A stretch of DNA of 64,000 bases from Actinomyces bowdenii (GTDB lineage: Bacteria > Actinomycetota > Actinomycetes > Actinomycetales > Actinomycetaceae), in assembly GCF_017592395.1 (NCBI RefSeq), contig NZ_JAGFOU010000006.1, positions 1 to 64,000 of the forward strand, given 5' to 3'. Shown in pieces: positions 27,615 through 53,498 of the stretch. The notes beneath the pieces are model-generated. The model made no database searches. It was not told where the DNA came from and was given only the letters and a program-made list of their open reading frames with translations. The position numbers and the translations under genes are program-made. Within the stretch, counting starts at the first letter, position 1. Every line of letters begins with the position of its first letter.

Positions 27615-29916
27615 GCCGGGGCCGCCGCGCCCCGGCACGTGCCGGGGCTGTCGGCTGAGCAGGGAAGGCAGCCCGCATCGGGCCTCCGAAGGCCTGACCT
27701 GAGGGAGCGGCGGTGCTAGGTTGTTCCGGTGCCCCGGCGCGAGCCGGGGCACCGGCCCCTGTGGTGGAATCGGTAGACACCGCGACCTTAAAAGTCGCTG
27801 CCTTCGGGCGTGCGGGTTCGAGTCCCGCCGGGGGCACCACGGTGCTCGAGTACGAACCCGCAGCAAGCGAGGTCGTGGCCGGAGCCATCTCAGACGACGA
27901 GTGATGCTCACCCTTGGCGGTGGGCGTTTTTCGTTGGGATGAGAGGCCTGGGTCCGGGGCCGGGCTCAGGGCGGTCCGGCTGGATCGGCTTGCAGTGGTG
28001 GCGCTGCCGTGGTCGGCAAGTTCCTGGGAAGGGGCACTGGTCTGGGCGTGCTGGTGCGCCGCCTGCCGTAGCCCGGGGCTGGTCAGGTGGTCGAAGGGGA
28101 AGCTGAGGATGGCGGCGGCGCTGGTGCGCTGCTCGGGGTCCTGGGTCAGGATGAGGCCTGTGCTCGGGGCTGGGTTGCGGGCGGTGTGGTCGTCGGTCAC
28201 TCCGGCGCCTTTCTGCCGTCCGGCAGAACCTGCCTCCGACTGGTTGGTCGGCCAACCAGCATCGCCCCCAGCGTCTCCGGTCTCCCCGGTGGCCGTATGC
28301 CCACCATCACTCCCAGGGCCGTCGCCCTCGGGTTGGTGGGGATCGGCTGGTAGCACCACTCGTCCGTCCTCATCGACCGCTGGGTTGACCAGGATTCGTT
28401 GGAAGAAGACGCGGTCGAGCTGTTTCTTCAGGTGCTCCGGCGCTACGGCGTAGAGCCGCTGGCAGTCCTCCAGCAAGTCCAGGGCCTGGGTCAGGTGCTG
28501 GCGGACCTGGGTGATGTCTGCCTGGTAGCCGTCGAGCTGGCGCTGAATCCCAGTGATCTGCCGGGTCAGGCGCTCCTGCTCCTCCTTGAGCAGTTCCAGG
28601 GGAACGGCGCCGGCGTAGTGGGCCTGAAGCAGCTGGCGGCGCTGGTCCTCCAAGCCGGTGCGCCGGGTGGTCAGGGAGCGGATCTGCTGCTGGCGCCCGG
28701 ACTTGATGTGGTCCAACTCGGCCAGCAGGTAGGTCTCAACAGCCTGCCTGTCCTCGGGTGTCAGGCAGATCCTCCCGTACAACTCGGCTACCCGGGCCTC
28801 GACCTGGTCGATGAGGACGGCTCGGAAGGTGCAGTCGTGGGTGCGGTGGCGCCGGGCGCACACGAAGTAGGGGTAGGTCTGGCCGTGGCGGTTGGTAGCC
28901 TTGTGCACCAGCAGGCGGCAGCCGCATAGCCCGCACACCACGGTGGATTTCAGGTGGTGGTTGTGCAGGCGCTGCTGCTCCCCGTGACGGTGGGCGGCCA
29001 GGATGTCCTGGACCTGCTGCCAGGTCACCTCATCGACCAGCGCCTCATGCCGGCCGGGATACTCCACGCCCTGGAAGGAGACCACCCCACGGTAGTAGGG
29101 GTGGCGCAGCAGGGTGTGCAACCGGTTCTTGGTCAAGGGCTTGGCCGGCTTACTGGGGGTAGCGGGGATGTCCAGGCCCAGGCCGGCCAGGTGCTCGGCC
29201 AGGCGGGCCACCGTCCAATTGCCGGTAGCGTACTCGCTGAAGGCCAGGCGCATCAGGGGCGCGCGGTCGGGGTCCAGCTCGACAGTGCGGATCTCGCGGC
29301 CCTGGGCATCCTGGCCGCGCACGTTGCGATACCCCAGGGGTGCCTTGCCGATAGTGCCGCCGTTGCGGGCCTTCTGCCCCATGCCTTTGAGGACCTCGTT
29401 GGCCAGGTTGCGCGAGTAGAACTCGGCGATCGAGCTCATGATGCCGTGCAGCAGGATGCCGCCCGGGGTCTGGTCGATGTTCTCGCTGGTGGAGACCAGG
29501 CGCACCCCGGCCTGCTCGAAGGCCCGGTTGATCTCCACGTCATCAGCCCGGTTGCGCGCCAGGCGGTCCAGCTTGTGGACGATGACGTAGTCGATGCCGC
29601 GATCGTCCTGGAGGTAGGCCAGCATCCGCTGCAGCTCGGGGCGGTTGGCGCTGCGGGCCGACTCGCCGCGGTCGACGAACTCCTTGACGATGAGGGCGCC
29701 CATAGAGGCGGCCTTCTTCTTGTTGGCCTCCCGCTGGGCCGGGATGGAGAACCCCTCCTCAGCCCCCGCCCGCTGAGCCTGCTCACGGGTGGAGACCCGG
29801 ATGTAGGAGACAGCCCGCTTGGGCTCCAGAGCGGCAGACATGGCCTGAAGCGGGTCAACGCCCGGCGAAGCCGCTGCGGCGGTGGGCGCGTCTGAGGTGG
29901 TTGTTGTCGGGTTCAT
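27373..29916 (-). CDS. Large serine recombinase; 3' end of frame runs through attL
   Basis: Probable integrase of the element. Resolvase domain near residues 33-185 with catalytic Ser42 in VSYIRVSTREQ and VIVHKLDRLARNRAD; recombinase domain (GKAPLGYRNV...KNRLHTLLRHPYYRG); zinc ribbon with cysteines in VCGLCGCRLL and FVCARRHRTHDC; long coiled coil; VFFQRILVNPAVDEDGRV at the normal family end (about residue 560). ATG at 29916 follows AAAGGAGG. After about 130 further polar residues the frame crosses attL (residue 694) and continues 153 codons antisense to tRNA-Leu and acs, so that tail is not native sequence. See the finding on C-terminal exchange. Confidence 0.85.
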   Translation of the reverse strand: MNPTTTTSDAPTAAAASPGVDPLQAMSAALEPKRAVSYIRVSTREQAQRAGAEEGFSIPAQREANKKKAASMGALIVKEFVDRGESARSANRPELQRMLAYLQDDRGIDYVIVHKLDRLARNRADDVEINRAFEQAGVRLVSTSENIDQTPGGILLHGIMSSIAEFYSRNLANEVLKGMGQKARNGGTIGKAPLGYRNVRGQDAQGREIRTVELDPDRAPLMRLAFSEYATGNWTVARLAEHLAGLGLDIPATPSKPAKPLTKNRLHTLLRHPYYRGVVSFQGVEYPGRHEALVDEVTWQQVQDILAAHRHGEQQRLHNHHLKSTVVCGLCGCRLLVHKATNRHGQTYPYFVCARRHRTHDCTFRAVLIDQVEARVAELYGRICLTPEDRQAVETYLLAELDHIKSGRQQQIRSLTTRRTGLEDQRRQLLQAHYAGAVPLELLKEEQERLTRQITGIQRQLDGYQADITQVRQHLTQALDLLEDCQRLYAVAPEHLKKQLDRVFFQRILVNPAVDEDGRVVLPADPHQPEGDGPGSDGGHTATGETGDAGGDAGWPTNQSEAGSAGRQKGAGVTDDHTARNPAPSTGLILTQDPEQRTSAAAILSFPFDHLTSPGLRQAAHQHAQTSAPSQELADHGSATTASRSSRTALSPAPDPGLSSQRKTPTAKGEHHSSSEMAPATTSLAAGSYSSTVVPPAGLEPARPKAATFKVAVSTDSTTGAGAPARAGAPEQPSTAAPSGQAFGGPMRAAFPAQPTAPARAGARRPRLSRCPVWTGLPRPAPGRGPAAPGAGSCPSGSWAAPRGSRRTRAWRWARASPPHAGAARPPACGRAPRPGGAPPPRGWRAP
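27694..27722 (+). promoter_or_regulatory. Putative promoter of tRNA-Leu
   Basis: CTGACC, a 17-bp spacer and TAGGTT, placed so that transcription would start near 27729, about 25 nt before the tRNA. The match to sigma-70 consensus is partial, so this is tentative. Confidence 0.4.
27726..27755 (+). terminator. 13-bp hairpin with GNRA-type loop between acs and tRNA-Leu
   Basis: CCGGTGCCCCGGC and its complement flank a GCGA tetraloop. The last base of the hairpin is the first base of tRNA-Leu. It could terminate acs transcription or form a leader structure cleaved off by RNase P; the overlap with the mature 5' end makes the second role notable. Confidence 0.55.
27755..27839 (+). tRNA. tRNA-Leu(UAA)
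   Basis: Acceptor GCCCCTG pairs with CGGGGGC; anticodon stem GCGAC/GTCGC with loop CTTAAAA gives anticodon TAA; long variable arm (TGCCTTCGGGCGT) typical of leucine tRNA; T-arm GCGGG-TTCGAGT-CCCGC; discriminator A at 27836 and encoded CCA at 27837-27839. The left attachment repeat begins at 27834, inside the last bases, so the tRNA is kept intact by integration of the mobile element. Confidence 0.97.
27834..27862. repeat. Left attachment repeat (attL)
   Basis: 29-bp sequence beginning GCACCACGGTGCTCGAGTAC, identical to 53470-53498. The first six bases are the end of tRNA-Leu including CCA; the rest lies downstream. It contains the palindrome-like GGTGCTCGAGTAC core. It also falls inside the serine-recombinase reading frame, where it encodes AGSYSSTVV on the minus strand. 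Confidence 0.9.
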
Positions 29917-30071
29917 GAGGTCCTCCTTTCGGCGTGATTGCTGTGTTGGGGTCTGGCGGTGAGGTTGGCAGCCGACGGCGACGCGAACTTGCACAGCGCT
30001 GGCATCCTGGCGCCACTGGCAGGGCTGACCACCCCAGACCGTCATCTCACTCAGTGAGATGGCCTGTCTCC

Positions 30072-30101
30072 ATTGACGCTCAGATGGGCGGAAGAGTCAA
30101 G
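30072..30101 (-). promoter_or_regulatory. Promoter/operator copy 1, upstream of the recombinase
   Basis: On the minus strand: TTGACT, a 17-bp spacer, then GTCAAT. The ends TTGAC and GTCAA form an interrupted palindrome. Twenty-seven of 30 bases match 33913-33942, which sits upstream of the other recombinase-like gene. The leader to the recombinase start would be about 150 nt. Confidence 0.6.
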
Positions 30102-30562
30102 GGGGATCATTGAAATCGCAACAATAGCGGGACGCCTCACCAACATGCCCAAGCCGAGGGCAGTACCCCCTACCAACGCCTCTACGTCGCCATCTCGACC
30201 ACCATCATGCAAGGCTTGGTGTGTGGTGCTAGCAAGAACCACCGACTACGTGTACAATCTCATACAAGACCTCCCCACAAGCCAACCTAGCACTCCACAC
30301 TCCTCTATGGGACATCAAAGAACTCATAACACTCCTCACTCTCCCCCACGCATCCTTGACGCATGTCGTGAATCTTGCCGAGAGTAGGACACAACCCTAC
30401 CGCCAACTATTACCTGAAACTACTCTCAATTGAAAAGACGTGGAACCAATCGAAAATTTTATCGCAACATAAACCACCAGCCCTTATCGTCTAAATAAAA
30501 ATACGCCACATACTCTCGCACCTAAATTCCCCCTAGTTTTCTATCAGGAATGGACCATAAGA
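30102..30562. other. AT-rich intergenic region before the WbqC cassette
   Basis: No gene of convincing quality in this 460-bp stretch. Base composition falls sharply from about 30380 (CGTGGAACCAATCGAAAATT onward), marking the left edge of an AT-rich cassette. It should hold the promoter for the operon starting at 30563; no strong consensus was found. Confidence 0.4.
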
Positions 30563-30859
30563 ATGACAGCCCTTAGCGAAATTATCTCAGGTTTACGAAA
30601 TTTTCGATCCTCACTTTTAACAGGCACATTGATTGGCGCCACGATTTATGTAGCATTCTACAAACAACTCGAGTTGTCCATAAATCCCAGTCCTGCGATA
30701 ATAAATCTATATTCTTTTCAATCCTGGATGCCTCTAGCGATGACAGCCTTATGCGCTTTTTTAGTAGGTTCTCTGTACGTAACTGCTCTTGAAGGTGCTG
30801 TTGATTGGGTTCATCGCAGGCGGCTAGGCAAGAATTGCAAGAAAAAAAGTTCCCTTTAA
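30563..30859 (+). CDS. Two-helix membrane protein, possibly 5' half of a frameshifted 4-TM gene
   Basis: 98 codons encoding two transmembrane helices (SSLLTGTLIGATIYVAFY and WMPLAMTALCAFLVGSLYVTAL) and a basic tail RRRLGKNCKKK. The frame ends six codons after a run of seven A (30842-30848). The overlapping -1 frame continues as a second membrane protein to 31344. A one-base slip in the A run would give one protein of about 260 aa with four helices. Family not recognised. First gene of an AT-rich operon. Confidence 0.6.
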   Translation: MTALSEIISGLRNFRSSLLTGTLIGATIYVAFYKQLELSINPSPAIINLYSFQSWMPLAMTALCAFLVGSLYVTALEGAVDWVHRRRLGKNCKKKSSL

Positions 30860-31344
30860 ATCGCATTTGTTTAACAATCTCACCCATATCGCAAGCGTCT
30901 CTTGAGCGACTTCAAATTGAAAGCGAGCGTTATTACCGCGAATTAACTATTCCTTCAAATGCTCCGTTTTGGCTGAGAGACGAAGATAGTTTTCTTTATA
31001 AAAATCAAGCGGATATACTATGGATGGAAGGAAAACTTGCAGGGTTGCCGCTTAAAGCCGAGTATCGTCAGTATCGTGCTGAAGGAGAGTGGCAGTTAGC
31101 AGTCGCAATTTTATTGCCGTTCACTAGTGTTGCTATGTTAAGCGGATTTGGAATCTCGAAAATTCAAATAGCCATCGCCTGTATCGTCATCGTCTCGCTT
31201 TCTATTAAACTTGCAGGGTATGGGCTTTACTACTATCGTAGAGCTAATAGTCTTATTGCTCATCATATTGCGGATGGTTCTTTAATGACACCAGCAATGG
31301 AGACCGCCAGTCGCATATGCAGTTCCCAAGATGTCTCGAATTAA
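30805..31344 (+). CDS. Two-helix membrane protein, possibly 3' half of the preceding gene
   Basis: Open frame starting at TTG 30805 (GAAGG 9 nt before) and overlapping the previous gene by 55 bp in the -1 frame. A soluble stretch (SLERLQIESERYYRELTIPSNAP) precedes two helices (LAVAILLPFTSVAMLSGFG and IQIAIACIVIVSLSIKLAGYG) and an RRANSLIAHHIADG tail. It either starts internally by itself or is joined to the upstream frame through slippage at the A7 run. Not recognised as a named family. Confidence 0.55.
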   Translation: MGSSQAARQELQEKKFPLNRICLTISPISQASLERLQIESERYYRELTIPSNAPFWLRDEDSFLYKNQADILWMEGKLAGLPLKAEYRQYRAEGEWQLAVAILLPFTSVAMLSGFGISKIQIAIACIVIVSLSIKLAGYGLYYYRRANSLIAHHIADGSLMTPAMETASRICSSQDVSN

Positions 31345-31396
31345 GGTATTATATAATTATCAGTCAAACGAATCAGAAGACAGGAGTCTAGAAATC

Positions 31397-32164
31397 ATGC
31401 AGATCGAACGCGAACTATTTGAGATTCCCTCTCAAGATGGCCCGCTTATTGCAAGTCTGAGTGATACGCCCGAGGTAATTCGCAAGAACAGAATACCTCT
31501 AATCATTCTCGCTACTGGTGATGGCCCTTCCGGCAGCAAAGGGCAAACTTGGACGCAACTTTTGCCAATGATAAAAAATGCAGGAATGGCATCATTATTA
31601 TTTGATTTCCGCGGTCTTGGATATTCCGATGGAACTTATGAAGATCTTACTTTAAGCATGGGCTGTCGAAATCTGGAGGCGATTCTCAAGTATGTTACTA
31701 GCTCTAATTTACAGGGGGATAAAGGCGTGGGAATTCTAGGGTCTAGCTTTGGAGGAAACGTGGCCTTGCTCACTGCTGGTAAATATACTGAAGTAGGCGC
31801 TATTGCTTTAAAGTCTCCAAGTTCTTTCCTTCCTGAAGGGTACCAACTACAATATGGTGCTAAGTTGATGAAAATATGGAGCGACGAAGGTTATCATCCA
31901 GAAGTTGGATTGAAATACACTGCAGTGATTGATTCACTGATGCACAACACGTTCCTTGAAGCATCAAAAATTTCCGTTCCTGTGCGGATTGTTCAAGGAG
32001 ATGCTGACACTGCAGTTCCCATTCGTCATTCTCGAGACTTGGTTCAAGTCATGAAAAAAGCGAGTCTTCTTGAACTTCCCGGAGTTGATCACTGGTACGC
32101 AGAGACCGGCGCCTGGGACGCCATGTCTAACGATCTTATCTCTTTCCTCAAGGAGAATCTGTGA
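31397..32164 (+). CDS. Alpha/beta hydrolase
   Basis: 255-aa serine hydrolase. Nucleophile elbow GSSFGG with Ser117; oxyanion-region MASLLFDFRGLGYSDG; acid in RIVQGDADTAVP; His in LPGVDHWYAE. It resembles the lipase/esterase-type dienelactone-hydrolase group acting on small acyl or lipid substrates. ATG at 31397 is preferred because GACAGGAG lies 11 nt before; an ATG at 31331 in the same frame overlaps the upstream gene. Third gene of the AT-rich operon, followed by the methyltransferase 1 bp after its stop. Confidence 0.85.
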   Translation: MQIERELFEIPSQDGPLIASLSDTPEVIRKNRIPLIILATGDGPSGSKGQTWTQLLPMIKNAGMASLLFDFRGLGYSDGTYEDLTLSMGCRNLEAILKYVTSSNLQGDKGVGILGSSFGGNVALLTAGKYTEVGAIALKSPSSFLPEGYQLQYGAKLMKIWSDEGYHPEVGLKYTAVIDSLMHNTFLEASKISVPVRIVQGDADTAVPIRHSRDLVQVMKKASLLELPGVDHWYAETGAWDAMSNDLISFLKENL

Positions 32165-32165
32165 A

Positions 32166-32822
32166 ATGGATAACTTCATCGACGCTTCTGAATATGAAAT
32201 TCAGTACTCGAGTGTTTTTACACAGAGTCAAGTGGTTGGCGCCTATACAAATTGGAATGAATTTTCGGAAACTGAATCCGAATTGCTGTCTTCTCTCTTG
32301 CCTCAAACGGATAAGGTTTTAGATCTCGGTTGCGGCGCAGGTCGAGCATCTTTACTAGTGCCGAAGGCTACTTATTATGTTGGTGTTGATCTTTCCGCTG
32401 AGATGATAAATAGCGCCAAGATAAGGTTTCCTGATAGGAATTTCATACAGAAGGATATCCTTGAATATTTAGTATCACTCAACGCAGATTCCTTCGATTG
32501 CGTGCTATTGCTCAATAATGTGATCGATATACTGCATCCGCTGGAGCGTAGAAAAATGGTACTCTCAGAAATTAAAAGAATCCTAATTAGTGACGGAAAT
32601 TTGGTATTATCATCTCATATTTTGTCAGATTATCAACCTACTTCCGGGTATTATAAAGAAATGTATCATGGAAACTATATTCAAATTTACAGGAGTCGCC
32701 ATAGTTCTTTTATACGAGAACTAGAAGAGATTGGTTACGGCGTGATTAAATCTGCCATTGACTATCGTGACTCCCGTGGTGATTGGGTGTATGTATATGC
32801 AAAAGTTCATTCTCGCTCTTAA
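32166..32822 (+). CDS. SAM-dependent methyltransferase of the cargo operon
   Basis: 218 aa; motif I VLDLGCGAGRASLLVP, YVGVDLSAEMINSAKIRFP, and DSFDCVLLLNNVIDIL are the class I methyltransferase signatures. ATG at 32166 follows AAGGAG located in the end of the hydrolase gene. Substrate unknown, presumably a small molecule handled with the hydrolase and the WbqC-like protein. Confidence 0.85.
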   Translation: MDNFIDASEYEIQYSSVFTQSQVVGAYTNWNEFSETESELLSSLLPQTDKVLDLGCGAGRASLLVPKATYYVGVDLSAEMINSAKIRFPDRNFIQKDILEYLVSLNADSFDCVLLLNNVIDILHPLERRKMVLSEIKRILISDGNLVLSSHILSDYQPTSGYYKEMYHGNYIQIYRSRHSSFIRELEEIGYGVIKSAIDYRDSRGDWVYVYAKVHSRS

Positions 32823-32835
32823 CAAAGGAGATTAG

Positions 32836-33540
32836 ATGAATATCACTTGCGTCACATCCAGATACATTCCTAACGTCCCGCATTTAGTTCGTCTGCTGGA
32901 AGTTGATCGTTCGATCGTACTAGATTTGTCTCTAATGCCAGATCGAAACAAGAATTCTTTTGTCAATAGAAATAGGATTCTGACCGCTAATGGCGATACA
33001 TGGTTGACGATTCCTGTACACAGGCAGCGAGGGTTGCCCGTGTGTGATATAAAAATATGCGAAGAGCAATCGGATTGGCGTCAGAGACATTTATCTATAT
33101 TGAGGCAGGCATATCCAAAACTAGATTCAGATGGAGAGCGTTTCCTTGAGATATACCGTTCGACTTCTATTGAATCAGGATCGCTGGTGCATGTCAATAT
33201 GATTATCTTAGAACATCTATTTGATTGCCTATCCATAAAATTTCCAAACATTTCTCTTGAAAGCAGTCTAACCTGCACCCATCCTCATTTCCATCGTTGG
33301 CATTTATCAGAGATCCTAAACGCAAGTACCTATGTCGCGGGCAGTGTGGAGTTTGAGGTCATGCGTAGGAAGGGTAGGGAAATTAGCAGGTTTCACCAGA
33401 GCAAAATCTCTATCTTCGAAGGCAGGAAAGTGAAGCAAAAGGAATTGATTCATTATTCTGCAATCCACTGGCTTTTAAATAGAGGATCCGCGTGGACTAG
33501 GGAACAAATAGAAGCGCTTTATAAGGGCGACGAGTTCTAG
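32836..33540 (+). CDS. WbqC-like family protein
   Basis: 234 aa. The N-terminus SRYIPNVPHLVRLLEVDRSIVLDLSLMPDRNKNSFVNRNRIL, the WLTIPVHRQRGLPVCDIKI strand and DWRQRHLSILRQAYPK follow the WbqC pattern. Members of this family lie in O-antigen and other small-molecule gene sets, and the reaction is not settled. ATG follows AAAGGAG. It is the last gene of the AT-rich operon; its end overlaps the resolvase-like gene on the other strand by 44 bp. Confidence 0.8.
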   Translation: MNITCVTSRYIPNVPHLVRLLEVDRSIVLDLSLMPDRNKNSFVNRNRILTANGDTWLTIPVHRQRGLPVCDIKICEEQSDWRQRHLSILRQAYPKLDSDGERFLEIYRSTSIESGSLVHVNMIILEHLFDCLSIKFPNISLESSLTCTHPHFHRWHLSEILNASTYVAGSVEFEVMRRKGREISRFHQSKISIFEGRKVKQKELIHYSAIHWLLNRGSAWTREQIEALYKGDEF

Positions 33541-33841
33541 AGACAATATCATGTCTCAGGACTTCGGTGACGGACAGGGCGTCCTCGGCGTCGAGGCTGG
33601 TGGGCGGCCAGCTTGTAGTGCACAGGTAGCGGATGCCGGGCTCCTGGATGGCGCGCAGCGCCATGTCCAGGCCGATGGTGTGGTCCCCCAAGTCGTGGAA
33701 CTCGGTCATCACCTCCAGACCTGCGTGCCGGCAGTAGCGTCGCAGCTCGGTGCTCTGCCAGGCGATTTCGGCCGGGCGCTGGCCGTGGGTGTAGATGACG
33801 ACACCCTCGATGCTGGATTGAGTTGGCGTGGTTTCGGGCAT
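33497..33841 (-). CDS. Resolvase-like protein without the catalytic serine
   Basis: 114 aa that follow the resolvase N-terminal pattern: VVIYTHGQRPAEIAWQSTELRRYCRHAGLEVMTEFHDLG, then GLDMALRAIQEPGIRYLCTT. The usual Y-x-R-V-S motif reads YTHGQ, so Ser and the key Arg are absent. No DNA-binding domain follows. It may be a remnant or a regulatory paralogue of the main recombinase. Its last 15 codons lie in the AT-rich cassette, so the native end may have been replaced. It shares promoter sequence with the main recombinase. Confidence 0.55.
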   Translation of the reverse strand: MPETTPTQSSIEGVVIYTHGQRPAEIAWQSTELRRYCRHAGLEVMTEFHDLGDHTIGLDMALRAIQEPGIRYLCTTSWPPTSLDAEDALSVTEVLRHDIVSRTRRPYKALLFVP

Positions 33842-33912
33842 GAGATTATTCCTCCCCTCAGTGATTCTTAGCTATTCATGCAAGAGACTGACACAGTCCC
33901 GTCTCTGCTTCT

Positions 33913-33942
33913 ATTGACGCTCAGTTGGCCCGAAGAGTCAAG
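33913..33942 (-). promoter_or_regulatory. Promoter/operator copy 2, upstream of the resolvase-like gene
   Basis: Minus strand TTGACT, 17-bp spacer, GTCAAT, with TTGAC/GTCAA ends forming an interrupted palindrome. Three mismatches in 30 bp to 30072-30101. The leader to the start at 33841 is about 65 nt. Confidence 0.6.
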
Positions 33943-46514: not shown

Positions 46515-47225
46515 ATGGCGGTCTATGACCTTGTGCGTGATCCGTATCTTGATCCTGCTAGTGGCGTGTTGCGCAATCGGCTCGATATCTCCGACCCACA
46601 GGTATTGGCCGAAACAGAAGAAGTACTAGTAGCGACAGCTGCCTTCAGTCTTCTCGAATCTCTAAAGCCCGACCATTGGGATGCCGCACTCCTCAAACAT
46701 CTGCATCACGAGTTGTTTGGCCGGCTCTATACTTGGGCTGGTCAGTATCGCACCGTGGAGATCAGCAAGGGTTCCTCGCGCTTCGCCATGGCTCAGTACA
46801 TCCCGTCGCAGACAGAAGTTGTCTTCTCCAACCTGGAGCAGGAGCGCCACGACTGGCAGCCGGGCGATCCTGCCGTGATCGATCGACTGGCGCACTACTA
46901 CTCCGAGCTCAACGCCATCCACCCCTTCCGTGAGGGCAACGGCCGCACCATCCGCTTGCTGCTCAGTTTGTTATCCAACCGTTACGGTTGGTGGCTGGAC
47001 TGGGCGGCCATCACCGCCGAAGAGAACACCCGAGCGAGTACACTAGCGTTCCATGGGGATGAGAGTGAGCTACGCGAAGTGTTGCAGAGAGTAGCGGGCC
47101 GGATCCAGGCTAGTGAGTCGATCAGAAAGGACGATGGTGGCAGTTATGAATGGACGCGAGAAGCAGGAAATCAGGCAACGACTTCTCCAGGAAAAGGTCA
47201 TCGAAGAAAGTCTCGCCAATGGTGA
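46515..47225 (+). CDS. Fic family AMP-transferase toxin (VbhT-like)
   Basis: 236 aa. N-terminal YDLVRDPYLDPASGVLRNRLDISDP and GRLYTWAGQYRTVEISKG, with the catalytic motif HPFREGNGR at residues 136-144 (His136, Glu140, Asn142, Arg144 all intact). Would transfer AMP from ATP to a host protein; the targets of VbhT-type toxins include DNA gyrase and topoisomerase IV. Kept in check by the antitoxin encoded upstream. The last 30 codons, including SPGKGHRRKSRQW, overlap the next gene and may be a replaced tail. Confidence 0.9.
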   Translation: MAVYDLVRDPYLDPASGVLRNRLDISDPQVLAETEEVLVATAAFSLLESLKPDHWDAALLKHLHHELFGRLYTWAGQYRTVEISKGSSRFAMAQYIPSQTEVVFSNLEQERHDWQPGDPAVIDRLAHYYSELNAIHPFREGNGRTIRLLLSLLSNRYGWWLDWAAITAEENTRASTLAFHGDESELREVLQRVAGRIQASESIRKDDGGSYEWTREAGNQATTSPGKGHRRKSRQW

Positions 47226-48783
47226 TGGCCCATGGACAGTTGTCTATGACACATGGGGCCAAGACAGCCAAAGGGGGGCTCGATATGTTGCGTTAGCACA
47301 ACCCGCTATCCGAGACAAGGTGCTCAGTAGTTCAACCTGGGATCTCTCTATAGGAGCAGGGACGCCAGGCTTTATTCAACGCAGCAATAGTGATGTGGAG
47401 GCAGAATACTATCGAATTTACGAAGCCCCCGAACTTGAACCTCTTATTATCGTCCAGGAATTCCATGGCGTGGCCCCTAATGCAACTCTGGTATCTGAAG
47501 AGTTCATTCTTCTCATGAATCTATGGAAAGATCCGAAGTCGGGAAATTATTTTAAGATTGGCGACGACGGCTCTAAAGATCTTGCTATCAAAATTGACGG
47601 AAGCAAGATCGAGATACGCACCCCCATACTAAAGAAATATCTTGCGGCGCGGCAACTTGACGCCATATTATATGTTGACTCGGTAGTTTCAGTGCCGACC
47701 GCACTGTCTGGCAAGGAGTTTTCTGGTATAGAGATCGAAGATCGATCCAACGGACGAGATGAGTGTCTTTCTCGTAGTGTCGGTGAGATGCCGTACGGCC
47801 ATCAAAAAGTATTTTCTCGGGTGTTAGTAAAACATGTTTTAATTGCTCCGCCTCAAGAGACTTGCGGTATCTGGCCGTGGGATGAACTGGATCCGCTAGA
47901 TTACCCAGATTTCGTTATTGGTGAAGATGAGATAGGCAAACCAATCAAGTTCACTTGCGATCCTGATCAACTGGCAAACTATTTTGGAGCTAATCCAGAT
48001 GCGCCTCATTACCTCACTCCTGTATTCTTCAAGCCGGAAGTACTTCAAAAATATTATGATAATTCTGACCTCTATACAGTGAGCGCTGGTAGAATCTCTT
48101 GCGGCTGCAAGTGGGCTGTAGATATAGACAACTACGACTCTGGCGCTGTATCGGTGTTTCTAGGCGACATTGGACGTGATATACCTCGCGGAGATTGGAG
48201 TCACTGGCTCGCACACAATGTACCGCCCACACAAAAGATGAGCGAAACCAACATACGCTTATCCTTTCTCAATCAATCTGTTGAAAGCCCCAATCCTGAG
48301 CATCGTTTTAAGCTCTCCTATCAAAACCTTCTGGGTGTGTGGAATGAACGTTGGGGATGGACGCTATACAGAGACGCCACCGGATCGGACGCTGGCATTA
48401 TCAAACGGCTTCGCATTCCACTTAATGATACTGACGCCGAGTTGAGGCTGCAACTACTTAATCTAGCACTTGTGCTTGTTGATCTTCTCAACGAAAAGGC
48501 ATTATCAGCAGAGATCTCAGCAGACAAGAACGAGAAAGGAATCGCTAAATTAAGAAGATTCCTTGAACTAAAGGGCTACCCTCAGGTGGACCGGGATATC
48601 AAACTCCTCCAAAAGGTGCAGCAAATGCGTTCTCGTATCGCTGCGCATGCTTCAGGTAGTAGTGGCGCGCAGTTGCTAGATTCAGAACTCGACGGTAAGT
48701 CACCACGCGAGTATATAGCGCGGTTGATGTCAGATGCGACACAGATGTTGAATGATCTGACTGAGTTCTCTAAGTGCAAGTGA
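47134..48783 (+). CDS. Large uncharacterised protein with HEPN-like C-terminus
   Basis: 549 aa. The middle holds a conserved-looking block PVFFKPEVLQKYYDNSDLYTVSAGRISCGC...WAVDIDNYDSGAVSVFLGDIGRDIP that I recall in a widespread but unnamed bacterial protein family. The last ~140 residues are helical and contain R499-x5-H505 (RSRIAAH), the pattern of HEPN RNases, near QQMRSRIAAHASG. Start ATG 47134 follows AGAAAGG closely; GTG 47113 and ATG 47146 are alternatives. The start lies inside the Fic gene. AT-rich, unlike the host. Confidence 0.65.
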   Translation: MVAVMNGREKQEIRQRLLQEKVIEESLANGDGPWTVVYDTWGQDSQRGARYVALAQPAIRDKVLSSSTWDLSIGAGTPGFIQRSNSDVEAEYYRIYEAPELEPLIIVQEFHGVAPNATLVSEEFILLMNLWKDPKSGNYFKIGDDGSKDLAIKIDGSKIEIRTPILKKYLAARQLDAILYVDSVVSVPTALSGKEFSGIEIEDRSNGRDECLSRSVGEMPYGHQKVFSRVLVKHVLIAPPQETCGIWPWDELDPLDYPDFVIGEDEIGKPIKFTCDPDQLANYFGANPDAPHYLTPVFFKPEVLQKYYDNSDLYTVSAGRISCGCKWAVDIDNYDSGAVSVFLGDIGRDIPRGDWSHWLAHNVPPTQKMSETNIRLSFLNQSVESPNPEHRFKLSYQNLLGVWNERWGWTLYRDATGSDAGIIKRLRIPLNDTDAELRLQLLNLALVLVDLLNEKALSAEISADKNEKGIAKLRRFLELKGYPQVDRDIKLLQKVQQMRSRIAAHASGSSGAQLLDSELDGKSPREYIARLMSDATQMLNDLTEFSKCK

Positions 48784-49345
48784 CTCGACAGACGCATCCG
48801 CAACGTCACTGCCGAGTTCCTGATCTTCACCGCGCAGGACGGCGGGGTAGCATTGAGGCGCGCTACGAAGATGCGCCGGTCTGGCTGACTCAAAAGTTGA
48901 TGGCCGAACTGTTCGGTGTCGATGTGCGTACTATCAGTGAGCACCCTGGGCAACGTCTTCAGGTCAGGAGAACTGGAGAGCGACGCAGTTATCCGGAAGT
49001 TCCGGATAACTGCCACCGACGGCAAGGTCCTCCCCAGCGACGTCGCCATCGGCAAGAACTACCTCACCAGCGAGGAACTGGCGGACCTAGGGCGCCAGGT
49101 CAATGCCTTCCTTGTCCTGGTCGATTCCCGCGCCCGTCGCCAGATCCTCATGACCATGGAGGATTGGGCTAAGCGCCTCGACGCCTTCCTCAATCTCGAC
49201 GACCGCGAGATCCTTGAAGGCGCTGGCCGCATCTCCAAGACCTAAGCAGACGACCACGCCCTGAGTGAGTTCGAGAAGTTCAGGGTGGTGCAGGACCGCA
49301 AGTATGTGAGTGATTTTGATAGACTAGAAGATGCGCGCATTGAAA
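48783..49345 (+). pseudogene. Broken RhuM-family gene
   Basis: Fragments of one RhuM (virulence-type KilA-N/ORF6N-related) protein appear in order but in different frames: YEDAPVWLTQKLMAELFGVDVRTISEH (about 48865-48945), then ELESDAVIRKFRIT (about 48973-49015), then EELADLGRQVNAFLVLVDSRARRQILMTMEDWAKRLDAFLNLDDREIL to a TAA at 49243, and after that stop in frame EFEKFRVVQDRKYVSDFD. At least one frameshift, an internal deletion of the mid-domain and one nonsense codon are present. Confidence 0.75.
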
Positions 49346-49357
49346 GGAGGGTAGACA

Positions 49358-50137
49358 ATGACGAAGAAAACGACTAAAGACGATAAGCCTAATCTGATCA
49401 AAGTCGTCTACTTCGACGAGGAGTCAGCCTCGGACTACTTGGATATGTCCGCCGGCGGTAAAGCCGCATCCACGAGCGAAGATGTAAAAGAGCGGACCAA
49501 TCAGGCCCATGGTAAAGTCGAAGCTGGCCTCATCACGAAGCTCAGTTGGTTGCCGTTTTTTGGTGCGTCAGGCGATCTGAACGCAGGTGCCGGAGTGGCC
49601 GCAGCTGGCAAGAGCATCCTGAGCAAGACGCTGTCGAACACGATCCTGACAGACTACCTCGTCAAGTCGGATAGTGACCCTCGAGTGGTCCAGTTACGAG
49701 ATCTTCGCGTGACCGCGCCTAAGGGGTCTATGACGTACATGAAGATGTTCACACCTTACATGGTGCTGCTCAAGCTGGACGATGTGCCTTTCGACTTGGC
49801 GCGCATGGATGAAGTGCTTGCGAACGCGAAAGGCTATTATGAGTTACTCGGTGAATATGATAATGGTTCCAAGTGTGTACTGCGATTCAACCTCAAGGCG
49901 TTCCGGAACAACTACGGGCTCACAGATCTCGGACGTATGCACCTCGTCTTCCACGGCGTACTCGTCGGACAGACATCTGAGCAAGCGCTCGGCATGGAGG
50001 CCGAGATGTCAGGCGCTACGGACTGTGCAGTTGTGACAGCTGCCGAACTCGTTGATGGCGAAGACACGGAGAATGACGACCTCCTGGATGTCTACGACGT
50101 CATCCTTGCAGGAGTTGAGGCCGAGTATGCCAAGTGA
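49358..50137 (+). CDS. DUF6414 family protein
   Basis: 259 aa. Opens with VVYFDEESASDYLDMSAGGK, the hallmark of DUF6414, and has a Gly/Ala-rich centre (ASGDLNAGAGVAAAGKSILSKTLSNTILTDYL) that may insert in or contact membrane, followed by a beta-rich domain. ATG follows GAAAGGAGGG, an unusually strong ribosome site. The AAA+ gene overlaps its last 11 bp. No biochemical function is known to me; tight coupling to an ATPase suggests a two-component system. Confidence 0.7.
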   Translation: MTKKTTKDDKPNLIKVVYFDEESASDYLDMSAGGKAASTSEDVKERTNQAHGKVEAGLITKLSWLPFFGASGDLNAGAGVAAAGKSILSKTLSNTILTDYLVKSDSDPRVVQLRDLRVTAPKGSMTYMKMFTPYMVLLKLDDVPFDLARMDEVLANAKGYYELLGEYDNGSKCVLRFNLKAFRNNYGLTDLGRMHLVFHGVLVGQTSEQALGMEAEMSGATDCAVVTAAELVDGEDTENDDLLDVYDVILAGVEAEYAK

Positions 50138-51296
50138 TACGACGGTCACCATCTACTACGGCCCGCTGTCGTGGTTCAATGAACAACTGGGAGAGAAGGG
50201 GTACACGCCCCTTCTCGACATCGTTTACGAGCGCGACGAGGCCAATCGACGCTATATACATATACATGTCGCTGAAGGCCAGGAGCCCCCTCCGGCCGAG
50301 GAACCTGGACCGAGACCGAAGCGGGTGGCAGTAGAGTCGAGCGATTACGCCAGCCTGAACGAACACGCCATCACCAACTTTGCTGGCCTCATACGATCGA
50401 TCAACCCCAAGCACCTTCATCTGCACAACCCACCGGCCTACGTTCACTCACAGCTTGAGCGTGCTTTCACGACCGAGGAGAAGCGCTATGAGTACCCGGT
50501 GGTAACACGGGACATGCTCGTTGGCTTCCACGACGGCTTTGCCGACCATCTCGTGGGTCAGGCCAAAGTGAAGGAGGCGCTGCTCGCGGCGCTGTATCCA
50601 CTGACCACGGCACGGCAGACGAAGCCAGTCGTTTTAATGTTCTACGGCCCGTCTGGTGTCGGTAAGACTGAAACCGCGCAGTTCATCAACGGTTTACTCG
50701 GGGGGAAGTTGCTGCGCAAACAGTTCTCTATGTTCCACAATGACAAGTTCGCATCGTATTTATTTGGCGGAGCGCACCTCGAGGCCTCCTTCGCACGCGA
50801 CTTACTCGATCGTGAGTCCGGTGTCATCCTTATCGATGAGTTCGACAAAGCAAACTCGGTCTTCCACAGCGCCTTCTACCAGTTATTCGACAGTGGCGTG
50901 TTCGAGGATAAGAACTACAGCGTCAAACTCGGCCCATCCTTGATCATTTGCACCTCAAACTACGCCACCGAAGACGAAATCCGCAAGACTCTCGGCGACG
51001 CTCTCTATTCACGATTTGACTCCTTGATTCACTTCAAGCCACTCTCCAAGAATGAGATCTATCAGGTTATCGACAGGATTGTTGATAACCGCTTCTCGAA
51101 GCTCGGACCTGACGAAAAAGCGCGACTGGACCCCAGTGTTATCAAGACCATACTGTATCCGCTAGCCAACAAGGGAGGCAATGTCCGCAAGCTCGGTAAG
51201 TTAGCCGACGAGGTTATTTCGCTGGTGTTGGTGCGCGACATACTGAAAAACACCAGCCAGACCAGTAGCGAAACCAATGCGGAGGATGGGTCATAA
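50127..51296 (+). CDS. ClpB-D2-like AAA+ ATPase
   Basis: 389 aa. A unique N-terminal domain (~115 aa, VTIYYGPLSWFNEQLG; ANRRYIHIHVAEGQ) precedes an AAA_2 module: Walker A GPSGVGKT at residues 174-181, Walker B VILIDEFDK near 233, sensor 1 IICTSNYA, Arg finger in DALYSRFDSLIHF, and a D2-small-like C-terminus ending NVRKLGKLADEV. Only one ATPase domain, like torsins and some defence unfoldases. Start ATG 50127 lies inside the DUF6414 gene. A hydrophobic segment continues in frame after the TAA stop. Confidence 0.85.
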   Translation: MPSDTTVTIYYGPLSWFNEQLGEKGYTPLLDIVYERDEANRRYIHIHVAEGQEPPPAEEPGPRPKRVAVESSDYASLNEHAITNFAGLIRSINPKHLHLHNPPAYVHSQLERAFTTEEKRYEYPVVTRDMLVGFHDGFADHLVGQAKVKEALLAALYPLTTARQTKPVVLMFYGPSGVGKTETAQFINGLLGGKLLRKQFSMFHNDKFASYLFGGAHLEASFARDLLDRESGVILIDEFDKANSVFHSAFYQLFDSGVFEDKNYSVKLGPSLIICTSNYATEDEIRKTLGDALYSRFDSLIHFKPLSKNEIYQVIDRIVDNRFSKLGPDEKARLDPSVIKTILYPLANKGGNVRKLGKLADEVISLVLVRDILKNTSQTSSETNAEDGS

Positions 51297-52987: not shown

Positions 52988-53473
52988 CTAAGCATCGTTG
53001 CCTCTCGCGCTCAGATGCCTCCGCACCGTCCCCCGATCGAACCCAAGCTCCAGGCCGATGTCGATGAGGGACACGCCCTGGGCTACGAGCACCTCGGCGC
53101 GCTGTCGGTGCTCCTGGGTGAAGCGATGGGGTCCTCGATGGGCTGGCCTGGGACGCTCCCGCCAGATGGCACGCACCGTGTTCTCGTGCACGCCGTGACG
53201 CTCCGCTACCGCCCGGGCCCCAAGAGACCCGCTGGCCTCTCGCCGGATGGCAGCCCGCTTCTCGCGCGAGATGGGGCGTTTCTCGGCGTGGATGATCCTC
53301 CGCACGACCTTGGACTGCTCGGGCGGCGGGGTGGTGTCGCCGTCTGCCGGCTTCGCGGTATCGTCGAGATCCCGCTCCTCCGAGCCGAGCCTGGGCCACC
53401 CTCGCTGCAGGAAGCGCTCACGGAACCGGAGCAGGCTCCTCCAGTTCTTCGTGTCGAGGGTGCTGAGGCGCAC
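52988..53473 (-). CDS. Two-HTH module, probable detached C-terminus of the serine recombinase
   Basis: About 161 codons. Two successive Hin-like HTH units: SLGARAVAERHGVHENTVRAIWRE and FTQEHRQRAEVLVAQGVSLIDIGLELGFDRGTVRRHLSARG, the tandem arrangement found at the C-terminus of many actinobacterial recombinases. The frame is open across attR and matches the recombinase frame within the repeat, so in the excised circle it would be fused to it. In the integrated form GTG 53473, inside the repeat, is the only plausible start near the boundary and has no ribosome site. Confidence 0.55.
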   Translation of the reverse strand: MRLSTLDTKNWRSLLRFRERFLQRGWPRLGSEERDLDDTAKPADGDTTPPPEQSKVVRRIIHAEKRPISREKRAAIRREASGSLGARAVAERHGVHENTVRAIWRERPRPAHRGPHRFTQEHRQRAEVLVAQGVSLIDIGLELGFDRGTVRRHLSARGNDA

Positions 53474-53498
53474 CACGGTGCTCGAGTACGAACCCGCA
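53470..53498. repeat. Right attachment repeat (attR)
   Basis: Perfect copy of 27834-27862. The sequence to the left is element, to the right chromosome. The bases before it differ (CG-CACC here, GG-CACC after tRNA-Leu), which fixes the length of identity at 29 bp. Confidence 0.9.

Follow-up and report, generated by a model that had tools for sequence, protein, structure and literature searches.

A foreign gene cassette in Actinomyces bowdenii

The 64,000-nucleotide stretch of Actinomyces bowdenii DNA analyzed here (hereafter, the window) carries, within a mobile element, a short AT-rich operon at positions 30563-33540, which raises the question of whether its genes form a genuine foreign unit and, if so, what this unit does. 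The operon is real: its G+C content is 0.419, as opposed to 0.68 in the adjoining element genes on both sides and 0.72 and 0.68 in the host flanks around the element; its five open reading frames (ORFs) are open; and homologues in the same order are found on plasmid pRLN1 of Rhizobium leguminosarum strain Norway. Because homologues of all parts keep their order on this plasmid, the ORFs are true genes rather than chance frames. The genes are overlapping or nearly so, all lie on the plus strand, and encode, in order, a membrane protein, an alpha/beta-hydrolase, a SAM-dependent methyltransferase and a WbqC-like protein. The first-pass annotation had described four or five genes with strong ribosome sites. 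Four is the appropriate count, as ORF1 and ORF2 correspond to consecutive portions of a single Rhizobium protein of 274 aa. On visual inspection, the strong ribosome site AAGGAG precedes the methyltransferase and wbqC genes, and upstream of the first gene there is only an AGGA at some distance. The cassette lead-in (30110-30562, no strand assigned; 48.8% G+C) presumably bears the promoter; promoter-like sites in the region are about as frequent as in shuffled sequences (10 versus a mean of 7.2, sd 2.2). Promoter and terminator scans gave results near the chance level, and an Rfam search at gathering scores matched the tRNA alone.

The hydrolase (31331-32164, plus strand; PF12146, E 2.8e-10) possesses a GxSxG motif (GSSFG at 137), and its Ser139, Asp226 and His254, whose catalytic roles were assigned by position, are identical in the window and Rhizobium copies. 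The class I SAM-dependent methyltransferase (32166-32822, plus strand; ORF 32160-32822 with ATG 32166 as the likely start; PF08241, E 1.6e-14) contains the motif DLGCGAGR, and the catalytic motifs of both enzymes are intact. The last gene (32836-33540, plus strand) encodes a divergent WbqC-like protein (PF08889, E 9.5e-20, 71.8 bits versus a cut-off of 21.3). These enzyme families suggest, as the first-pass annotation had proposed, that the product could be a small acylated molecule. The hydrolase is also weakly similar to the UilS lactonase model (46.9 bits versus a cut-off of 400), and an esterase- or lactonase-like hydrolase next to a methyltransferase would suit a short gene set making a diffusible antimicrobial or signalling molecule, for which the membrane protein would provide export or immunity. 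We regard such a role as improbable, since the cassette has no scaffold-making enzyme and its membrane protein resembles no transporter family above cut-off.

The split membrane protein gene

In the window, the N-terminal part of the membrane protein is encoded by ORF1 (98 aa; 30563-30859, plus strand), which is 35% identical over 81 residues to the N-terminal part of the Rhizobium protein and has a hydrophobic segment at residues 58-76. The C-terminal part is encoded in the -1 frame by ORF2 (30805-31344, plus strand; 42% identity over 170 residues to the 274-aa protein), with hydrophobic segments at residues 99-117 and 120-138 of its product. The ORF2 frame is closed by a stop codon at 30802-30804, directly followed by TTG 30805, and therefore a frame shift or a restart at this TTG must fall within 30805-30859. 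The sequence AAGGTG is located 7 nt upstream of the TTG. The idea that two separate membrane genes are a conserved trait was rejected, the gene being single in Rhizobium, and so was a canonical -1 slippery heptamer, since by eye the A7 run at 30842-30848 yields A AAA AAG solely when read out of the required frame. Slippage on the poly-A run or restart at the TTG are possible remaining routes across the split. It may be due to mutation, faulty assembly, a recoding site or functional splitting, and the single copy is compatible with each of these.

In Rhizobium the gene occupies one frame; in the window, reading it throughout takes a -1 change or a restart, as would be expected if the cassette were a decaying passenger whose window copy has been inactivated by a frameshift. 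Against such decay, the reading frames of both membrane halves and of all three enzymes are uninterrupted, the catalytic motifs are preserved, ORF2 could be translated alone from its TTG, and the tight gene spacing is retained, so that we consider it quite unlikely.

Neither ORF product matches a Pfam, NCBIfam or PADLOC family above cut-off, and a comparison with PDB sequences returned nothing useful (designed proteins, best E 0.0086). Hydropathy analysis of the Rhizobium protein revealed two clear segments in the N-terminal part and none above threshold in the C-terminal part, and the window halves have one and two segments, respectively; putting both together, we estimate about four helices. 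An AlphaFold2 model built from 2-3 sequences was poor (pLDDT 51.8), as was that of the WbqC-like protein (pLDDT 32.2).

The carrier element and the cassette insertion

The carrier is a 25.7-kb integrative element (27834-53498, no strand assigned) bounded by perfect 29-bp direct repeats (27834-27862 and 53470-53498), the left of which overlaps the 3' end of tRNA-Leu(taa). It encodes a large serine recombinase, a Replic_Relax protein and a TraG/TrwB-like ATPase, the latter two being the only conjugation genes among the 20 element proteins scanned, and it has relatives in other genomes. The low G+C content of the cassette and its position in this element bear out the earlier view of a self-contained foreign unit on a mobile element.

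A search for the TraG-like protein matched 8 of 151 genomes of the family, five of them from the same genus, including the window's own. We compared five related regions of 19 kb from the four other congeners, leaving out the three matches in other genera. The gene order TraG, Replic_Relax, a small gene (orf33k) and recombinase is kept in all five regions, each of which has a tRNA-Leu or tRNA-Ile gene after the recombinase. The cassette proteins have no match anywhere in these regions (0/5, E 1e-4), and because these five congener elements lack the cassette at the same place, it is most likely an insertion. The small backbone gene (33497-33841, minus strand), present in 5/5 related regions, had its 3' end replaced by the cassette: its DNA match to the related region L021 ends at about 33557, approximately 17 bp beyond the wbqC stop codon, and about 140 bp separate the portions of the small gene and of the recombinase that were matched in L021. 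The small gene, which lies ahead of the large serine recombinase, belongs to neither a Pfam nor an NCBIfam family, and on visual inspection its product is reminiscent of the N-terminal domain of a resolvase.

A 38-bp TTGACT...GTCAAT site is located before the small gene (33905-33942, minus strand), where each of the five related regions has its single copy. The window possesses a second copy, 84% identical, before the recombinase gene (30064-30101, minus strand), and a pattern built from the two copies has no further match in the window. L021 has the TTGACT...GTCAAT form and the other four regions have CTGGACTTTTC variants, with TTGAC/GTCAA arms. The site is likely a promoter or operator of the recombination genes. 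Since it is doubled in the window and single in the relatives, the cassette came together with a second copy of an element control site, which probably allows expression of the recombinase. The duplication could have originated, for example, through recombination between two elements.

A second copy on Rhizobium plasmid pRLN1

The one other cassette copy found belongs to another phylum and is located on pRLN1 (loci L004/L008). The same four genes follow each other in the same order on this plasmid, so that synteny of the whole set, observed at this one other locus, is conserved outside the window, and the missing synteny that the first-pass annotation had named as a counter-argument does not apply. 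The plasmid-encoded hydrolase, methyltransferase and WbqC proteins are 52% (231 residues), 39% (207 residues) and 35% (236 residues) identical to their window counterparts, respectively. The two loci share gene order, strand and defence-type surroundings, and the Rhizobium cassette also has a lowered G+C content (0.499; the outer portions of the locus reach 0.561 and 0.577). They differ in that the Rhizobium membrane gene is in one piece and is preceded by an NTP_transferase gene. Downstream of the Rhizobium cassette are a 348-aa gene without classification and, on the opposite strand, a gene for a HamB-like helicase. A gap of 141 bp separates the nucleotidyltransferase gene (PF00483, 5.4e-16) from the membrane gene downstream of it; both have a G+C content of 0.484, and the former is the only sugar-type gene noticed near either copy. 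It is a possible further member of the unit, with no homologue in the window. Altogether, the view of the cassette as a real, co-conserved and horizontally moving unit is well supported.

Defence-gene surroundings and distribution

In the window, the same element carries a Dodola pair at 49358-51296 (DolA, E 9.3e-75, and DolB, 3.3e-136, by PADLOC). The Rhizobium copy is flanked on one side by a truncated DpdF-like gene (L008 6235-7323), which covers positions 12-339 of the 811-position profile, and on the other by the Hachiman-like HamB-like helicase gene (1.5e-51, L008 13412-17023), encoded on the opposite strand. The 348-aa gene preceding the helicase (L008 12154-13200) could not be assigned to a family with any of the three libraries used and appears nuclease-like by eye.

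Several other genes of the window element were also noted. A Fic/DOC protein (46515-47225) matches the PADLOC candidate model PDC-S04 (4.9e-63), the VbhT/Fic models being below their cut-offs. A 556-aa protein (47113-48783) has no Pfam, NCBIfam or PADLOC family and carries RSRIAAH near its C-terminal end, which is HEPN-like by eye; in L022, beyond the tRNA, a 58%-identical copy of it adjoins a 71%-identical copy of the 42904-44043 gene product. Positions 48916-49245 encode an apparently truncated RhuM-family protein, which covers positions 156-230 of the 252-position profile.

The cassette itself matched no named defence system, in line with the first-pass annotation: the only PADLOC-DB 2.0.0 match was a generic one, between the methyltransferase and part of mad2 (E 1.1e-11 in the window, 3.5e-12 in Rhizobium), and assignment to a known defence system was rejected.

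In the genomes searched, the cassette is rare and patchy. The hydrolase profile identified 1 of 396 genomes of the phylum, namely the window's own (E limit 1e-30, with about six candidates per genome scored). The WbqC search identified 2 of 396 genomes of the order, the second protein being 24% identical and encoded beside a PIG-L gene. In samples that overlap in part, the membrane protein profile was found in one of 397 genomes of the Rhizobium order and one of 349 of its phylum, both the Rhizobium itself, and within the window's genus in 1/49, the window's own. Genome contigs scanned with two exact peptide patterns and a plasmid collection searched with the membrane protein both yielded pRLN1 only. 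Scans of viral contigs yielded no relative, E. coli genomes gave no DNA match, and phage records had no match to the WbqC or membrane proteins and three distant hydrolases (26-28% identity). These absences are weak evidence of rarity because the WbqC family search misses diverged copies, exact patterns were used in the contig scan and few candidates were scored in the hydrolase search.

The occurrence of both copies among defence genes, the patchy distribution and the small multi-pass membrane protein outside known families are all consistent with a dedicated intracellular anti-phage system of the abortive-infection type, in which the enzymes would make or remove a signal or cap and the membrane protein would be an effector damaging the inner membrane. 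We rate this scenario as rather unlikely, since PADLOC offered only the generic methyltransferase match and no sensor or nucleotide-cyclase-like gene was noticed. The defence setting of both copies suggests protection, but such neighbours are expected for any cargo of mobile elements, and two loci give no statistics with which enrichment could be tested.

An atypical WbqC subfamily

PF08889 was found in 64 of 249 genomes sampled from the phylum of Rhizobium by a search that misses diverged copies (genome G781 was scored as lacking the family, although its WbqC gene reaches 59.3 bits), yet the family is called functionally uncharacterised in a passage of PMC5532660. The passages on WbqC in PMC5507510, PMC7848895 and PMC5532660 describe it only as possibly O-antigen-linked, and a section of PMC9650423 places a WbqC gene between flagellar genes, together with methyltransferase and aminotransferase genes. 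The Rhizobium cassette protein scores 59.3 bits against PF08889 (cut-off 21.3), and a comparison of the window protein with PDB sequences gave no useful match (best E 0.49).

We compared both cassette copies with 33 other WbqC proteins, which comprise those of the 30 best-scoring PF08889 loci and of loci L003, L005 and L006. Columns replaced in both cassette copies include a Q, a G, one D (changed to H in both), one Y and one F that are invariant in the others (33/33), two W (31/33) and a P (30/33), the C-terminal columns being less sure as they fall in a gapped stretch of the alignment. P12, D24, D30, R45, W56, P60, W81, Y93, Y166, G169, F186 and other residues are kept. As judged from these alignments, the cassette proteins constitute a diverged, atypical WbqC subfamily, and their reaction may differ because near-universal residues of the 33 others are missing.

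The 30 best-scoring places were taken as loci of about 3.6 kb (L026-L055), which may be closely related. In 20 of these 30, wbqC is accompanied by a PIG-L deacetylase-like stretch, a proportion that is not an unbiased frequency. This pairing suggests that WbqC proteins exchange an N-acyl group, re-acylating de-acetylated amino groups. The same loci contain no relatives of the methyltransferase (E 1e-4) or of the hydrolase, the membrane protein and the Rhizobium nucleotidyltransferase (E 1e-3). With one PIG-L query, no match was obtained in the window or in L008. An O-antigen or nonulosonic-acid cluster was rejected as an explanation, given the lack of a PIG-L match and the scanned neighbours, which are element and defence genes; nor was any homologous operon with an established role such as O-antigen assembly, the alternative raised at first pass, found.

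Proposed role of the cassette

We tentatively favour, while giving it less than an even chance, a horizontally moving defence-island cassette working as one metabolic unit at the membrane, where a small acylated substrate resembling an amino sugar would be given a new acyl group and methylated. Three cytosolic enzymes would act in turn on one such substrate, probably amino-sugar-like or lipid-linked. The hydrolase would strip an acyl group, in place of the PIG-L deacetylase encoded beside many other wbqC genes, the WbqC-like protein would install a different amide, and the methyltransferase would add the final cap. The membrane protein, with its approximately four helices, would anchor the enzymes at the membrane or pass the product on, tying this chemistry to the envelope. 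The Rhizobium copy might activate the sugar via its own nucleotidyltransferase, a step that the host would supply in the case of the window. From the enzyme families and the gene setting we infer both the substrate and the benefit, which would be an altered envelope chemistry, most likely protecting against phage or competitors.

This metabolic unit is consistent with the shared gene order in a second phylum, the tight spacing, the low G+C content of both copies, the absence from all five related elements, the defence neighbours, the wbqC/PIG-L pairing and the intact hydrolase and methyltransferase motifs. Against it are the existence of only two known copies, the lack of a glycosyltransferase, aminotransferase or acyl carrier in the cassette and of a nucleotidyltransferase in the window, the absence of methyltransferase relatives from the 30 wbqC loci, the split membrane gene, which might be broken in the window, and the fact that the reaction of WbqC is not known. 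A bolder proposal, which we hold to be somewhat doubtful, is that the cassette represents an anti-phage system not described before: a new membrane protein family, a reprogrammed WbqC, the hydrolase and the methyltransferase would chemically remodel a membrane-linked small molecule, and the system would move between Actinobacteria-like and Proteobacteria hosts in defence islands.

The cassette is a compact portable gene set combining an unclassified membrane protein family with an atypical WbqC subfamily. A clonable set of four genes, together with the wbqC/PIG-L pairing, would make the reaction of the WbqC family testable, and the defence-type setting makes a phage-resistance test worthwhile.

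Comparison with known systems

Dodola, for which the passage cited reports experimental phage resistance (PMC12322248), is carried by the same element as the cassette but constitutes a separate gene pair, and the cassette proteins match none of its models. Similarly, helicase genes related to Hachiman and Dpd flank the Rhizobium copy, whereas the cassette proteins match neither system. Among WbqC-encoding loci, L005 and L006 are clusters of the nonulosonic-acid type with sugar pathway genes (e.g., NeuB, cytidylyltransferase and PIG-L genes in L006), which the cassette lacks, along with the canonical WbqC residues; a PIG-L deacetylase is encoded nearby in L003, L005 and L006 (3/3), in contrast to the cassette. 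What all three loci have in common with the cassette is a WbqC gene above the Pfam cut-off for PF08889, and the L005 cluster shares with it a methyltransferase as well.
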